Positions 1,037-6,358 of a DNA stretch of 13,283 nucleotides are shown here, piece by piece. A program made the translations under genes and the position numbers. Each line of letters begins with the position of its first letter. The stretch's first letter is position 1. The notes beneath the pieces were generated by a model. It made no database searches and was not told the DNA's origin. It saw only the letters and a program-made list of their open reading frames with translations. This DNA is from Candidatus Margulisiibacteriota bacterium (lineage in GTDB: Bacteria; Margulisbacteria; WOR-1; O2-12-FULL-45-9), in NCBI GenBank assembly GCA_018817195.1, contig JAHIUL010000099.1, forward strand, positions 1-13,283, written 5' to 3'.

Positions 1037-1123
1037 AACAGCCTTTGGCGTGATTTGAGCGAAAGCTGCGGCAAAAAGGCCAATCATTAGCCAGACACAA
1101 ATTAAGAATAGGTTTCTTTTCAT
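1..1123 (-). CDS. Exported 54-55-residue repeat protein, beta-propeller-like (partial, C-terminus off the left edge)
   Basis: This frame is open from the ATG at 1123 to the window edge, giving 374 codons with no stop, so the gene is incomplete. Residues 1-22 are a signal peptide (MKR start, hydrophobic core, AFA before Gln23), so the protein is exported. The rest is six tandem units carrying a [IV]xW-x-D core, with the Trp at residues 63, 117, 171, 226, 281 and 335, a spacing of 54 or 55. Each unit also has a D-x-x-GG turn, an Arg a few residues after the core Asp, a D-I-[FY]-A-Q-[RK] strand and an NGK-x-x-W strand. That period and beta-rich pattern suit propeller blades, though no named family is recognised. 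The ATG overlaps the smc stop codon as ATGA and no Shine-Dalgarno is seen, so translation is probably coupled to smc. The substrate is unknown. A solenoid rather than a closed propeller is possible. Confidence 0.85.
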   Translation of the reverse strand, partial: MKRNLFLICVWLMIGLFAAAFAQITPKAVWAKDGMLINDTPGNTSQQNPQLIPDGKNNFIIVWEDGRSGYYDIYAQKIDSAGKIIWTKDGVVACSAKGNQNFPQLASDMAGGAIIVWQDYHRGNADIFAQRIDSNGNILWGNLGIAISQASAGQFAPQIISDGNGGAIIAWHDYREGMGEDVFAQRVNADGKILWQENGVPISTAAGTQWYPKIVTDNAGGAVITWTDGRLSSSDNNIFAQRVDKNGKVLWETNGLSVCSAANNQASPGIISLSDGVIITWHDARAKGNDIYAQKISFAGKSLWIKDGAEICTVAYAQENPSLSPDGAGGAIVVWTDHRNEQNNIFAQRILSNGKLAWQADGRRVNESNREQRS

Positions 1124-3360
1124 TTAACACTTTCGGTCATTTTCATGGAGATAACTTTTGAAATACCAGGCTCTTCCATTGTGACGCCGTAGATATTATC
1201 TGCGACAGCCATGGTGCGTTTATTATGGGTGATGACAATAATCTGGCTCTGGTTTGAGAAATCTTTAAGCATCTCAGCAAAACGGCCAAGATTAGCGTCA
1301 TCTAAAGCTGCGTCAACTTCATCTAAAAAGCAAAATGGGCTGGGCCTGATCCTTAGCAGGGAAAAAAGGATTGCAATGGCGGAAAGCGAGCGTTCCCCGC
1401 CGGAAAGCAGGGGCAAGGGCAGCCATTTGCGGCCATTGGGCCTGACGGAAATTTCTATTTCCGCTTCTAAAGCCGCGACGCCTTCAGATAAAGTGATTTT
1501 TGCTTCTCCGCCGGCAAACAGCTTGGCAAAAACCTCGGAAAAAACAGTTGATATCTGCTGCATTGTCTCAAGGAATGTCTGTTCCGCTTTTTGGTCAAGC
1601 TCAATGATTAAATTGCGCAGGTTGTCGCGGGCGGCATTTAGGTCTGCCAGCTGGGCCTCCAAGAAGGTCAGTCTTTCTTTGGCCTTGTCAAATTCTTCAA
1701 TTGCCAGGAGGTTGACGGGTTCCAGCTGACGCAGCCTCAATTTTTTCTCTTCAACATCTTTTTTGCTCTTGACCACATTTGAGATCTGATGGGGGAAGGC
1801 CAGCGCTTCCTCAATATTCATGTTGTATTCCAATGAAACTTTTTCGCTGATGCCGTTCATCTCGCCTTCCAGCTTTGCCAATGCAATAGCCAGGGCATTT
1901 TCGTCATTTAATGTTTTTCTTTCTGCCTGCCCTTCCTGTTTGATTTTCTCTTCCAGGGCAGTAATTTGTTTAACAATTTCTTCTTTGGCCGTTCTTTTAG
2001 CAGCCAAAAGCTGGGAGGCGCTTTGTGATTTTTTGGTGTCTTCAGTTTTGCCGGTTAAATTTTCTAATTGTGAGCGTGAAGCCTGGAGCGCAAACCTGGT
2101 GCGTTCTTTTTCTTCAGCCAGGCGTGTAGCTTCTTCTTCCAGCATTTCCAGGCGCACTTTATAAGCCTCTTCTTTTTCTGCAGAATGTCCCAGGCTGAGG
2201 GAAATTTGGTTTTCTTTGCCCAAACTGTCGACTAAAAATGAAAGCTGCTCAATTAAGTTTGCTGCCAAAGAAATGATTTCTTCAAATGAAGTTGCCAGGG
2301 GTAGGCCAGTTAGCTCTAAGCCTTTCTTTTGTTGTTCAAGAGTGGCTTTAGCTCCATTGATTTTATCCTGGATAGTTTGTTCCTTTTCGCTAAGGCTGGT
2401 AATCTCTTTTTCTTCACGCTCAATTTCGCTTTTTATAAAGCGGTGATCAAGCTCCAGGTCGCGCATCTGGTCTTTTTCCTGCTCCAGGCTGACCAGGATT
2501 TGGTCAATTTCCTGTTCCAGCTGGCGCTGTTTGGCCCTTAAGTCAGCTAATAACTGCGAGTCTTTTTCTTCGCTGGCTTTTTGCACTTCAGAGGCTTGTT
2601 TTGCTTTTTCCAGTTCAGCAGTTAGTTTGGTTCTTTTTTCAAAGATCTGTTCCAACAGGCGGCGGCAAAGGCCAAGATCAAGAGTTTTAAGCTCTTCCTG
2701 GATTTGCAGATATTGTCTTGCTTGCCGGGCTTGCTCTTCCAGCGTAATTATCTGTTCGCCGACCTCAATTTTTAAATCGCTGATCCTTAGAATATTTTGT
2801 TCTGCTGCAATAATTTTCTTTTCTGCGGCAATTTTTCTGGTTTTATATTTGTTAATCCCAGCTGCCTCCTCAAAAACAGCCCGCCGGTCTTCGCCTTTGC
2901 TGGACAATATCGCGTCAACCTGGCCCTGGGTGATAATTGAATAACTGCTTTCCCCCAGGCCGGTATCAAGCAGCAGGTCTTTGATGTCTTTTAAGCGGCA
3001 CTGGTTTTTGTTGATGAAGAATTCGCTTTCCCCTTCGCGGAAGGTGCGGCGTTTAACCTCAACTTCGCTGAAAGGCAGGGGGAATTTATTTGTTGAATTA
3101 TCAAAGGTTAAAGCAACCTCAGCCAGGGACAGTGATTTGCGGGCAGCGGTGCCGGCAAAAATAATATTGGACAGGCTGGCGACCCGGAGCTTTCTGGGAT
3201 TGTCTTCGGCCAGTACCCAGCGGGTGGCGTCCATCAGGTTGCTTTTGCCGCAGCCGTTTGGCCCGACTACCGCGGTAATCCTGGCGTTTTCCGAAAACTC
3301 AATTTCCGTTGCATCTGCAAAAGTTTTAAAACCGCGCAGGCTTAGGGATTTTAAGAACAT
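1120..3360 (-). CDS. smc: SMC-family chromosome segregation ATPase, short-armed, without a recognisable hinge
   Basis: This 746-residue protein has a complete SMC head. It shows Walker A GPNGCGKS (33-40), the SMC-type segment NIIFAG (65-70), Q-loop Gln145, the EEAAGINKYK stretch (164-173), signature LSGGERS (652-658), Walker B FCFLDE (676-681), the D-loop AALDD (684-688) and His712. The segment LEPVNLLAIEEF (546-557) is the usual SMC neck. Bacterial SMC proteins are normally about 1150-1200 residues. Here two charged coiled-coil arms of roughly 175-180 residues (about 172-347 and 395-575) flank a short, less charged stretch (about 348-392). No hinge motifs are seen, and there is no CxxC zinc hook as in Rad50. 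The frame is open further upstream, but the ATG at 3360 starts the canonical MFLKSLSLRGFKTF, and the longer version would run into the divergent gene. The expected role is ATP-dependent DNA loop handling and chromosome organisation. No scpA or scpB is in the window. Confidence 0.9.
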   Translation of the reverse strand: MFLKSLSLRGFKTFADATEIEFSENARITAVVGPNGCGKSNLMDATRWVLAEDNPRKLRVASLSNIIFAGTAARKSLSLAEVALTFDNSTNKFPLPFSEVEVKRRTFREGESEFFINKNQCRLKDIKDLLLDTGLGESSYSIITQGQVDAILSSKGEDRRAVFEEAAGINKYKTRKIAAEKKIIAAEQNILRISDLKIEVGEQIITLEEQARQARQYLQIQEELKTLDLGLCRRLLEQIFEKRTKLTAELEKAKQASEVQKASEEKDSQLLADLRAKQRQLEQEIDQILVSLEQEKDQMRDLELDHRFIKSEIEREEKEITSLSEKEQTIQDKINGAKATLEQQKKGLELTGLPLATSFEEIISLAANLIEQLSFLVDSLGKENQISLSLGHSAEKEEAYKVRLEMLEEEATRLAEEKERTRFALQASRSQLENLTGKTEDTKKSQSASQLLAAKRTAKEEIVKQITALEEKIKQEGQAERKTLNDENALAIALAKLEGEMNGISEKVSLEYNMNIEEALAFPHQISNVVKSKKDVEEKKLRLRQLEPVNLLAIEEFDKAKERLTFLEAQLADLNAARDNLRNLIIELDQKAEQTFLETMQQISTVFSEVFAKLFAGGEAKITLSEGVAALEAEIEISVRPNGRKWLPLPLLSGGERSLSAIAILFSLLRIRPSPFCFLDEVDAALDDANLGRFAEMLKDFSNQSQIIVITHNKRTMAVADNIYGVTMEEPGISKVISMKMTESVK

Positions 3361-3369
3361 GTTGCACAA

Positions 3370-3399
3370 ATAATACCATAAAAATGATGAAGCCAGCAA
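3370..3399 (-). promoter_or_regulatory. Predicted promoter for smc, extended -10
   Basis: On the minus strand TTGCTG (3399-3394) and TATTAT (3375-3370) are 18 bp apart, and TGG precedes the -10 as an extended element. The -10 ends 9 nt before the smc ATG, which places the likely transcript start about 3 nt from the start codon. No Shine-Dalgarno sequence fits in that space. This is a prediction by eye. Confidence 0.55.
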
Positions 3400-3422
3400 C
3401 TGCAGAAAATGGCTTAAATTGA

Positions 3423-3452
3423 TTGCAACAAAATTTTCTGGTGTGCTACAAT
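3423..3452 (+). promoter_or_regulatory. Predicted promoter for the envelope operon, extended -10
   Basis: TTGCAA (3423-3428), an 18-bp spacer ending in TGC, and TACAAT (3447-3452) form a sigma-70-like extended -10 promoter. Only 8 nt separate the -10 from the ATG at 3461, so the transcript would be leaderless or nearly so. It lies back to back with the smc promoter, with 23 bp between the two -35 boxes, so one bound regulator could act on both. No clear operator palindrome was seen there. Confidence 0.55.
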
Positions 3453-3460
3453 AACACAAA

Positions 3461-4708
3461 ATGAGAAAGACACTGCTTTTCTTTATAGTCTTCTTTTTAT
3501 TTGCCTCACTGGCCCATGCCGGCATTTTTATTTATGAGCCCAAGGATAAAGAGATTCTATTTGATGAAGTTATTAAGCTGCGTGGTGTGGGCAAAGATCT
3601 TGAAGTCCTCAAAATAAATAACCAGGAGATAGATTTTGAAAAAAACGGTAATTTTATGTGCGGCCTGGTGCTGAAGCCAGGCAAGAACCTTGTGGAGGTA
3701 AGGGCGTTAGATACTAACAAACAACATTTTGTACAAAATATCCGCTTGCTGCGTTTGCTTAAATTTCCTGATATGGAAGGATTATTTAACGGTCAGAAGC
3801 ACTGGGCGCGCAGCCGCGTGGTTTATCTGGCCACTTATGGCTATATTGAGGGTTATCCTGATGGTAACTTTTACCCGGCCAACCCGATAACCAGGGGAGA
3901 GCTGGCAACCTGGATTGCCCGCATCAAGGGCTTTAAGCTTGAGGCCCTGACCGAAGATGTGTTTTTTGACGTGCCCAAGGAGCACTGGCGCGCACCATAC
4001 ATTAAGGCAATTGTTGATGCTGGTTTGATGAGCGGTTATAACGAAAAAACATTTGGCATTGACGACCCTCTTTCCCGCAGAAAAGCAGCAGCCATTGCAG
4101 TGCAGGCAGAGGGCTTAAAAGTAGCTGAAGATGTTAAAACATTTTTTGTTGATGTGCCAAAGGAAGAAAGTGGGGCAGCCCCCATCTATGTGGCAGGAGA
4201 AAAAGGTTTGGTCCGGGGAATTTATGAAGATATCAAGATTTTTGACCCGGACCGGGCGCTCACCCGCGCTGAAGCAGCGGTTCTTTTTTCCCGTTTTGAT
4301 CGGTCAATAAAAACCGTCCAATATTTATTCGATTTTAACAGTGGTTATTCAGAAAAAGTTTACGCCGGCTTAAATATTGCTCCCAAAATTATAGCTTTTA
4401 CCGCAGAGCCAAGCACCATTAGTGTTATGGAACAAAGCACTGTTCATCTGGAAGTTGAAATTGCGCCGCGCCGTGTTTTTTATCCTATAGCAACTGTTAA
4501 GGTTGACTTGTCGGAAATAGGCGGCATTGCTGATGTAGAATTATTTGATGACGGCACCCGGGGAGATAAGGCAGCTGGAGATAATATTTATTCGCTTAAC
4601 TTGTCGCTTGAGCCGGTCAGCAGCCACATTAAAACTTTAACTGCTACAGCGATTGACGGCCTGGGCTGGGAAAGCCAGCGCCAAACGTCGTTGTTGATTC
4701 TTGAATAG
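3461..4708 (+). CDS. Exported Ig-like/triple SLH-domain protein
   Basis: This 415-residue protein begins with a signal peptide (1-20, ending AHA). A short Ig-like domain follows at about 21-100, similar in pattern to glucodextranase B-type domains (INNQEIDF, then NGNF, then KPGKNLVEVRALD). Three SLH repeats lie at about 102-157, 168-218 and 228-279. Their key motifs are TRGE (144-147), SRRK (205-208) and canonical TRAE (268-271), so the second repeat has lost the usual acidic end of the motif. A C-terminal Ig-like domain (about 307-415) carries LFDDGTRGDKAAGDNIYSL. SLH domains bind wall polymers, or modified peptidoglycan in diderms, so this is probably a periplasmic wall-anchored protein. 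It is first in a four-gene operon and starts right after a predicted promoter without a Shine-Dalgarno sequence. What its non-SLH parts bind is unknown. Confidence 0.88.
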   Translation: MRKTLLFFIVFFLFASLAHAGIFIYEPKDKEILFDEVIKLRGVGKDLEVLKINNQEIDFEKNGNFMCGLVLKPGKNLVEVRALDTNKQHFVQNIRLLRLLKFPDMEGLFNGQKHWARSRVVYLATYGYIEGYPDGNFYPANPITRGELATWIARIKGFKLEALTEDVFFDVPKEHWRAPYIKAIVDAGLMSGYNEKTFGIDDPLSRRKAAAIAVQAEGLKVAEDVKTFFVDVPKEESGAAPIYVAGEKGLVRGIYEDIKIFDPDRALTRAEAAVLFSRFDRSIKTVQYLFDFNSGYSEKVYAGLNIAPKIIAFTAEPSTISVMEQSTVHLEVEIAPRRVFYPIATVKVDLSEIGGIADVELFDDGTRGDKAAGDNIYSLNLSLEPVSSHIKTLTATAIDGLGWESQRQTSLLILE

Positions 4709-4714
4709 TAATTT

Positions 4715-6358
4715 ATGATTTGCTTTAAAAACTATATAAAGCGTATTTGTGTTTGTTTGGCGGCGATAATTATTTTTATTGCACCTGCTTGGGCCCAGCT
4801 GGCTGAGTTAGGCATAAATCCGCTGGATATTGATTTAGGTGCGCGCCCCCTGGGCATGGGAGGGGCATTCACCGGCCTGGCTGATGATATGAACGCGCTT
4901 ATTTATAATCCTGGCGGCCTGGCCTGGGCTAAGGGAATTTCCGCAACAGTCAAAGATATTGAAAATATTGGCGTGACCCAGGCGTATCCCACAGGCTATG
5001 GTTCGTCATTAGGCCTGGGTGTTATTGCCCGTAAAATTAGCACCGCAATTCCTTCTGGAATAGCAAACTCCAGCGGTAATGTGATTTATTTGTCGTTTGG
5101 CACAAAATTGAATTTTATTCCCGCGCTGTTTGAAAGACCATTTTTTAACCGTTTGGGAGTCGGCATAAACTTTAAGGGTTTAAGCGGCCAGACCTTAAGG
5201 AAAGCTGGGGTGCCGGACCGTTCGGCCAGCGGGTGGGATGCGGATTTTGGCTTGCTTTGGAAGGCGGCTGATTGGTGGTCAGCAGGTTTAGTGGTGCAAA
5301 ACTTTCTGCCGGCTGGAGCTCTGGGCGGAGGAAAAATCAAATGGGATGTGGGGGGAGAAGAAGGGGTGCCGGCTATTGGCAAGCTGGCAGGATCAGCCCG
5401 CGTTATTGGCGATATTGATGCCCCGATTTTTATGGAAGGCCGCGAAGTTGTGGTTGCCGGTGAGCTTGATTTTTTCCAAACACAGCCAACCTTGCTTCGG
5501 ATCGGCGGCGAATACAAATTTAACGAAAGATATTATTTGCGCACAGGTTTTATGCAGCAGCATGGCAGAAATGGCGTAAGTTCTGACATTACATTTGGCG
5601 CCGGCATCCGTTTTGACCGCTTTGGCATTGATTTTGCCTCATATAACCAGGCGATACAAGAAGAGCGGTTTTTTGTTGTCTCAGTTTTATATTTTCCCAA
5701 GGAATGGATAGTCGTTGAAAAATTAGAATTTGAAAAACCTGGCCTTTTTCTTGAAACGGCATTTGAAAAGATTTCTCTTGAAGATAATATTGTAACAAGT
5801 GATGATGAAATTGAGGTTTCCGGCCGGGTTAAGCCGGGCGTAGAAGTGTATATTGACGGTTTGAGAGCTTCCCTTGATGAGGATAATTCCTTCAAAGTTC
5901 TTGTTCCTCTTCACATGAAAAAGAACTTAATTGTGGTGGAAGCACGCTACGAAGGCGAAAAAAAGATTTGGAAATATAAGGTCTTTCGTAAAGCCAGGGT
6001 TGATATTGCGGATGAGGCCGGGGTGGCCAACCTTGAAGAAAAAATAGAAGCTGTTGAATCCCTGGTAACAATGGGGGTTATTGAAATTACCCCTGAAGCT
6101 GATTTTGTGATGGAGGCTGGTATTACCAGGGGCGAATTGGCCAGCTGGATAGTTAAAGCAGCTGAACTAAGGCTGCCCAAGGTATCAGCAAATCTGTATC
6201 CTGATGTGCCGTGGAATCATCCTCTGGCGCCTTATATTAAAGTCGTAACTGATCTTAAGCTGTTTGAGCCCTTTGCCGATGGAACATTTAGGCCGGATGC
6301 AGTTGTGTCAGAGGAAGAAGGCAACAAGATTTTTGCGAGTTTTGACACTTTAAAATGA
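4715..6358 (+). CDS. PorV/UPF0164-like outer-membrane barrel fused to Ig-like and C-terminal SLH domains
   Basis: This 547-residue protein has a signal peptide (1-27, ending AWA). Residues 28 to about 328 resemble PorV/UPF0164 (FadL-like) barrels. The N-terminal GARPLGMGGAFTGLADD (42-58) followed by YNPGGLAW (64-71) is the family hallmark, and alternating amphipathic strands follow. An Ig-like domain covers about 342-428. Two SLH-like repeats end the protein: about 435-487 with TRGE (471-474), and 493-542, which reads YPDVPW, then ADGTFRPD, with a degenerate SEEE. The layout predicts an outer-membrane barrel whose periplasmic tail grips the wall. Known SLH-porins such as OmpM of Negativicutes carry SLH at the N-terminus instead. 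The gene lies 6 nt after its upstream neighbour, lacks a clear Shine-Dalgarno and shares ATGA with the next gene, so translation is probably coupled. Whether the barrel is a porin, a transporter or a secretion partner cannot be told from sequence. Confidence 0.82.
   Translation: MICFKNYIKRICVCLAAIIIFIAPAWAQLAELGINPLDIDLGARPLGMGGAFTGLADDMNALIYNPGGLAWAKGISATVKDIENIGVTQAYPTGYGSSLGLGVIARKISTAIPSGIANSSGNVIYLSFGTKLNFIPALFERPFFNRLGVGINFKGLSGQTLRKAGVPDRSASGWDADFGLLWKAADWWSAGLVVQNFLPAGALGGGKIKWDVGGEEGVPAIGKLAGSARVIGDIDAPIFMEGREVVVAGELDFFQTQPTLLRIGGEYKFNERYYLRTGFMQQHGRNGVSSDITFGAGIRFDRFGIDFASYNQAIQEERFFVVSVLYFPKEWIVVEKLEFEKPGLFLETAFEKISLEDNIVTSDDEIEVSGRVKPGVEVYIDGLRASLDEDNSFKVLVPLHMKKNLIVVEARYEGEKKIWKYKVFRKARVDIADEAGVANLEEKIEAVESLVTMGVIEITPEADFVMEAGITRGELASWIVKAAELRLPKVSANLYPDVPWNHPLAPYIKVVTDLKLFEPFADGTFRPDAVVSEEEGNKIFASFDTLK

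Follow-up and report, generated by a model that had tools for sequence, protein, structure and literature searches.

A short SMC protein without a recognisable hinge in a Margulisbacteria-type bacterium and its relatives

Among the parts taken to define an SMC motor is the hinge, which dimerises the motors and closes the ring. In the stretch of DNA analysed here (the window, 13,283 nucleotides), a minus-strand gene at 1120..3360 (746 codons plus stop) encodes what a preliminary description took to be an SMC protein with a complete ATPase head, no hinge and half-length arms. The locus therefore raises the question of whether this is an intact SMC, and, if so, how it could work as a condensin without the part that closes the ring.

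The longest open reading frame at the locus extends from 1120 to 3525 on the minus strand as a single open frame. Homology placed the start at MFLKSLSLRGFK (position 3360), which gives 746 residues in a continuous frame, as had been described. This start is likely, because a frame begun further upstream would run into the divergent gene at 3461. Within positions 1120-1123 the stop codon overlaps the ATG that opens the following minus-strand ORF (2-1123), which suggests that the two are co-transcribed. The two plus-strand genes adjoining smc (3461-6358) encode SLH (S-layer-homology) domain proteins.

The predicted protein (P0001 in the set of relatives) scored 711.8 bits against TIGR02168 (SMC_prok_B; cut-off 567.35), whereas the SbcC/Rad50 models gave about 20-30 bits, and its sequence matches in the PDB were topped by bacterial Smc head constructs (5xg3, 3zgx). 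All features below lie on the minus strand. The N-terminal half of the ATPase head (residues 1-157, 2890..3360; boundary set by us) was delimited by phmmer comparison with solved SMC heads and by an AlphaFold2 model, and the C-terminal half (residues 579-746, 1123..1626) by TIGR02168, phmmer and the same model. Across 48 alignment rows there was no variation in Walker A (GPNGCGKSN, residues 33-41, 3238..3264), in the core of the ABC signature (LSGGER, residues 652-657, 1390..1407; S653-E656) or in the acidic pair of Walker B (FCFLDE, residues 676-681, 1318..1335; D680 and E681), confirming the earlier reading of the head motifs as intact and specific to SMC. Rad50 and SbcC likewise combine an ATPase head with a coiled coil lacking the SMC hinge, but that identity was rejected on the far lower model scores and on the cysteine-free tip; no CXXC zinc hook was found there, the only cysteines being at residues 37, 121, 232 and 677. 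A fold search listed SMC, Rad50 and MukB structures (the first MukBEF chain at rank 42) and was uninformative on the tip.

Between the two head halves the protein departs from the family. Its alignment to TIGR02168 covers model positions 1-347 on the N-terminal side and 833-1181 on the C-terminal side (the latter from a six-frame search), so that some 485 model positions are replaced by about 45-50 residues, which means that the protein lacks the hinge and, on both sides, the distal portion of the arm. A search with SMC_hinge (PF06470) gave no match in the protein at E up to 1 or in the host genome at E up to 0.01, and a hinge profile made for the current study did not match the protein either. 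The absence of the hinge, first proposed from the sequence alone, was thus upheld. Because this defining feature of SMC proteins is lacking, the protein is regarded as a variant, probably working as a condensin, and not as a canonical SMC.

Outside the head lie two arms, each about 185 residues long, joined by a tip of 48 residues. In the AlphaFold2 model (mean pLDDT 77.9), the N-terminal arm (residues 158-345, 2326..2889) forms a helix over 170-345. In place of the hinge comes the tip (residues 346-393, 2182..2325), delimited by the model and by its variability in relatives, with a loop, a short helix assigned by DSSP (residues 356-377, 2230..2295; block pLDDT about 50-65) and a low-confidence loop at 378-393. 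The C-terminal arm follows (residues 394-578, 1627..2181), based on the model and on lengths in relatives, with the boundary at 578 set by us. These limits agree closely with the stretch of 348-392 between arms of 175-180 residues given in the preliminary description, and the hairpin expected there was predicted, albeit with low confidence at the tip, where no hinge fold was seen. Model and relatives together indicate that antiparallel arms are present at about half the usual length. Half-length arms are accordingly a real feature of this protein, but they represent one state of a series and do not come with hinge loss as such, since hinge-less proteins are as long as 1063-1070 residues among the relatives and 1105 in the CPR.

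An in-frame deletion introduced by assembly or annotation would give the same appearance, and the host assembly, a draft in 237 contigs, is fragmented. The architecture nevertheless recurs across many assemblies, so that chance is not an issue: in 97 of 101 close relatives the stretch 158-343 measures 185-186 residues, and the stretch 395-578 measures 180-185 residues in 97 as well. In a sample of 31 genomes of the host class (host genome included), an SMC was found in 30 at E<=1e-30, the exception being a genome 69% complete (G057), and a hinge match (E<=0.01) in none. Of the 30 SMC proteins, 27 are complete, share this architecture and measure 716-905 residues, while three lack the N-terminus. 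An assembly deletion was therefore rejected, and an artefact of any such kind is scarcely credible. The relatives share the short form, and close relatives with a full hinge, which would have spoken for a deletion, did not appear among the 31 class genomes. An N-terminal piece of a hinge-less SMC is fused to an OmpA-type domain (PF00691) in P0109, a 674-residue protein that is possibly an assembly chimera. Named relatives of the 746-residue protein belong to Candidatus Saganbacteria, WOR-1 or Margulisiibacteriota, from which we infer a host class of Saganbacteria/WOR-1 type.

A short paralogue beside a normal smc was also considered and rejected, because neither a second SMC nor a hinge was found in the host genome (77% complete), in line with the earlier expectation of no other smc. 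In the class, ScpA was matched in 27 of the 31 genomes and ScpB in 26, their genes often lying near each other on one contig, and ParB in 30 (all but G059). The proposed search for scpA and scpB thus succeeded at the level of the class and failed in the host genome itself: both were unmatched there and in G060, G062 and G065, and ScpB also in G054. Given its 77% completeness, the lack of scpAB in the host genome presumably reflects missing sequence; a partial ParB lies at a contig edge. The largest number of ParB-family matches in any class genome was five, one of them below the cut-off (G065). Because it is the sole SMC found in the host genome, has a form common to the class and belongs to a class that kept ScpA, ScpB and ParB, the 746-residue protein is probably the condensin of the cell. 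The same observations bear on the idea that it is a specialised ATPase of the repair type, like RecN or SbcC. The missing hinge and short arms give it a superficial resemblance to RecN and Rad50, but with 711.8 bits for SMC_prok_B against about 30 or less for SbcC/Rad50, no other SMC found and partners retained in most of the class, such a role is very improbable.

Elsewhere in the phylum two other situations were observed. All eight genomes of family f30 had a hinge; the open frame measured about 1190 residues in seven of them and 1076 (cut) in the eighth. Among 35 phylum genomes outside the class and f30 (G001-G035, 55-100% complete; six-frame search with at most eight candidates scored per genome), the only SMC match was a 193-residue frame in G007, and 33 had no SMC, ScpA or ScpB match over the cut-off. 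By these searches, condensin appears to be lost in most other families of the phylum. ScpA and ScpB were both matched in G014, a genome 97% complete with no SMC match, and G030 had a ScpB match below the cut-off.

If the protein is a condensin, two copies must be held together, and the tip is one candidate for doing so. The helix 356-377 and its loop could pair with those of a second copy, making a small helical dimeriser that closes the top of the ring much as the Rad50 zinc hook does. In the 101 relatives some hydrophobic tip positions persist despite sequence drift (L369 in 73%, L373 in 83%; also G381 in 84%), and relatives of 983-998 residues retain a hinge remnant. In the CPR proteins treated below, a stretch near the tip is moderately conserved, with an entropy of about 2.1 bits where most of the distal arms have 2.5-2.9, although another arm stretch is equally conserved. 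B. subtilis Smc, moreover, functions with an unrelated dimeriser (PMC5344682). On the other hand, no region measured in the 101 relatives varies more than the tip (mean entropy 2.47 bits, compared with 1.88-2.01 for the distal arms and 0.52-0.67 for the head halves). The length of the stretch 344-394 ranges between 42 and 53 residues, and model confidence at the tip is low. A metal hook is not indicated, because the host tip has no cysteine and any cysteine near the tip occurs in only 14 of the 101. A mini-hinge of this kind is possible, though doubtful. A separate protein bridging the two tips is unlikely, since a tip so poorly conserved does not resemble the binding site of a conserved partner.

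The arms behave differently: nearly fixed arms beside a variable tip are the pattern to expect from a rod of greater importance than the tip. They also carry a conserved patch (residues 300-315, 2416..2463) comprising R300, D301, E303, L304, R307, F308, E312 and R315, of which D301, E303, L304, R307 and F308 are each kept in >=97% of the 101 relatives. An RD followed by an (R/K)(F/H) step occurred in all 33 sampled rows of the 746, 770, 844 and 984 types and in no sampled 905, 997, hinged or Clostridia row, in a sample that left out the nested hinge-less rows P0113 and P0171. We propose that this putative contact patch helps the two arms to zip.

The origin of the hinge-less state was followed in a series of relatives drawn from protein searches (the best 120 of 7260 and of 7977 matches). 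Hinged relatives measure about 1180-1193 residues. P0114 (1133 residues) retains the C-terminal part of the hinge alone (profile positions 73-112), at 24.1 bits, just over the cut-off, with PF06470 and 64.5 bits with the home-made profile; P0121 is its hinged relative, 63% identical. P0114 is one sequence only and could reflect a local deletion. In the 983-998-residue type, 18 of 19 proteins matched the last part of the hinge profile very weakly (-0.3 to 10.7 bits) and at one common position, and their alignment contains a hinge remnant of about 70 residues with an (S/T)GG(S/T) motif. The model of this type has weakly predicted strands at the remnant (pLDDT 69.1, tip about 40-56), too weak to claim a mini-hinge fold. 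The types of about 1063-1070, 984, 905, 844-855 and 716-779 residues had no hinge-profile match above 7 bits. The tips are not alike from one hinge-less clade to another, so that a common replacement dimeriser is not apparent.

A tree built on the heads of 69 hand-picked rows required at least four changes of hinge state, and none of 200 bootstrap trees had a single hinge-less origin, although the starred branches of the careful tree force only two changes. P0130, a hinged protein labelled Margulisiibacteriota, was sister to the 997 type (support 100/99). For the hand-picked rows of the Margulisbacteria-type set, a single origin was rejected by the AU test (p 9.9e-5); one hinge-less clade gave p 3.6e-4 without P0113, P0171 and P0114, and p 3.9e-6 in a test with 21 CPR rows added, a selection without the hinged CPR proteins described below. 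We read this as probable repeated hinge loss in Margulisbacteria-type SMCs, with regain or the exchange of smc genes between lineages as alternatives; the counts alone cannot separate loss from regain, and loss is favoured because the outgroups are hinged. The host protein would then descend from a normal hinged SMC that lost its hinge and, with it, the distal portion of both arms; taken with the mechanism set out below, this whole explanation has about an even chance of being right.

Hinge-less SMCs are also found in the CPR. A Liptonbacteria locus (Parcubacteria group; genome G074) encodes one of 741 residues. In the class of this genome, SMC was matched in 88 of 142 genomes (E<=1e-30) and ScpA in 89; among the matches listed, the frames measured 674-855 residues, four shorter ones apart. 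No hinge match exceeded the cut-off in the 142 genomes, five having partial matches below it. In the phylum, where at most two candidates were scored per genome, 94 of 286 genomes matched SMC at E<=1e-70, with frames of up to 1105 residues among the matches listed. Forty-one CPR frames, chosen and not random (20 from the best class matches, 20 from longer phylum SMCs), were compared with the home-made hinge profile. In six of them, measuring 929-1060 residues within the stretch retrieved, the hinge was clear (99-118 bits), and the other 35 had nothing over 5 bits, so that hinge loss in the sampled CPR appears frequent but not universal. The SMCs of about 930-1060 residues at CPR loci L114-L116, L122, L123 and L125 have a full hinge match and hence shortened arms, and hinge-less CPR SMCs of similar total length occur alongside them. 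With the 21 CPR rows in a clade of their own, apart from the Margulisbacteria-type rows (support 100/100), and a common clade of all hinge-less rows rejected, hinge loss seems to recur across more than one uncultured lineage.

The reading we favour, which we hold to be evenly balanced between right and wrong, is that the 746-residue protein is the main chromosomal condensin of a Saganbacteria-type bacterium, used with ScpA, ScpB and ParB and held together by bridging at the heads and by arm zipping. The kleisin ScpA (with ScpB) and ATP engagement would hold two SMC hairpins together at the heads, and arm contacts, perhaps at the patch around 300-315, would lay them side by side as a short rod. 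DNA would be held in the head/ScpAB compartment and pushed by ATP-driven opening and zipping of the arms, with no permanently closed hinge end. Besides the family score and the lone SMC of the host genome, the class counts (SMC 30/31, hinge 0/31, ScpA 27/31, ScpB 26/31, ParB 30/31), the fixed arms with a variable tip, a patch seen in this hinge-less clade and the lack of a shared replacement dimeriser all point this way. According to PMC5526789, which cites Minnen 2016, arm contacts along the rod help the hinge-less Smc of B. subtilis to dimerise. Against this reading stand the four genomes without ScpA or ScpB, the host among them, and an arm whose length of about 186 residues matches neither of the published natural modes, 163 and 238, but falls between them. 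An attempt to place arm length on the published 91-100 residue steps gave no clean fit. According to PMC5344682, the hinge of B. subtilis Smc can be swapped for a zinc hook, which makes the hinge fold itself unimportant, but that swap left a dimeriser in place.

Compared with the bacterial Smc-ScpAB condensin (TIGR02168, B. subtilis Smc), the protein has the same head motifs and head-proximal arm, with ScpA, ScpB and ParB in its relatives, but no hinge and a shorter arm, about 186 residues where B. subtilis Smc has 344 (PMC5344682). The mini-Smc and Smc(zinc hook) described there resemble it in their short arms and replaced hinge fold; they differ in being engineered and in retaining a strong dimeriser. 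MukB and the channel-less hinges of Wadjet II/III are alike in their reduced hinge function, yet keep the hinge and mostly have longer arms, as described in PMC12647877, which recently also presented the hinge as a gate for bypassing obstacles. As a kind, the hinge-less SMC is not new, since PMC12153180 reports one in a cluster of oceanic Actinomycetes. By that description it has the same SMC head and coiled coil, no hinge and no CXXC hook, and is set apart by its lineage, its origin in ocean metagenome ORFs and its uncertain host; the present set adds occurrence throughout a class, together with its partners and arm lengths, intermediate forms and relatives that have a hinge. Among the matches listed in the open-licence literature, no report of a hinge-less SMC in Saganbacteria, Margulisbacteria or Patescibacteria was found, nor of class-wide use with ScpAB and ParB, intermediates, repeated loss or the extension to the CPR.

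If several uncultured lineages have repeatedly lost the hinge with SMC-ScpAB-ParB still in use, their condensin would organise chromosomes without a hinge-closed ring, through short arm-zipped hairpins bridged only by heads and kleisin, a proposal we consider plausible at somewhat less than even probability. Organisms whose only detected SMC is hinge-less offer a direct test of loop-extrusion models based on ring closure. The relatives with half a hinge, a remnant or none form a natural series for testing the purpose of the hinge, in which hinge and arm states are available to reconstitute. Since relatives share the hinge-less form, the hinge may be dispensable in nature.
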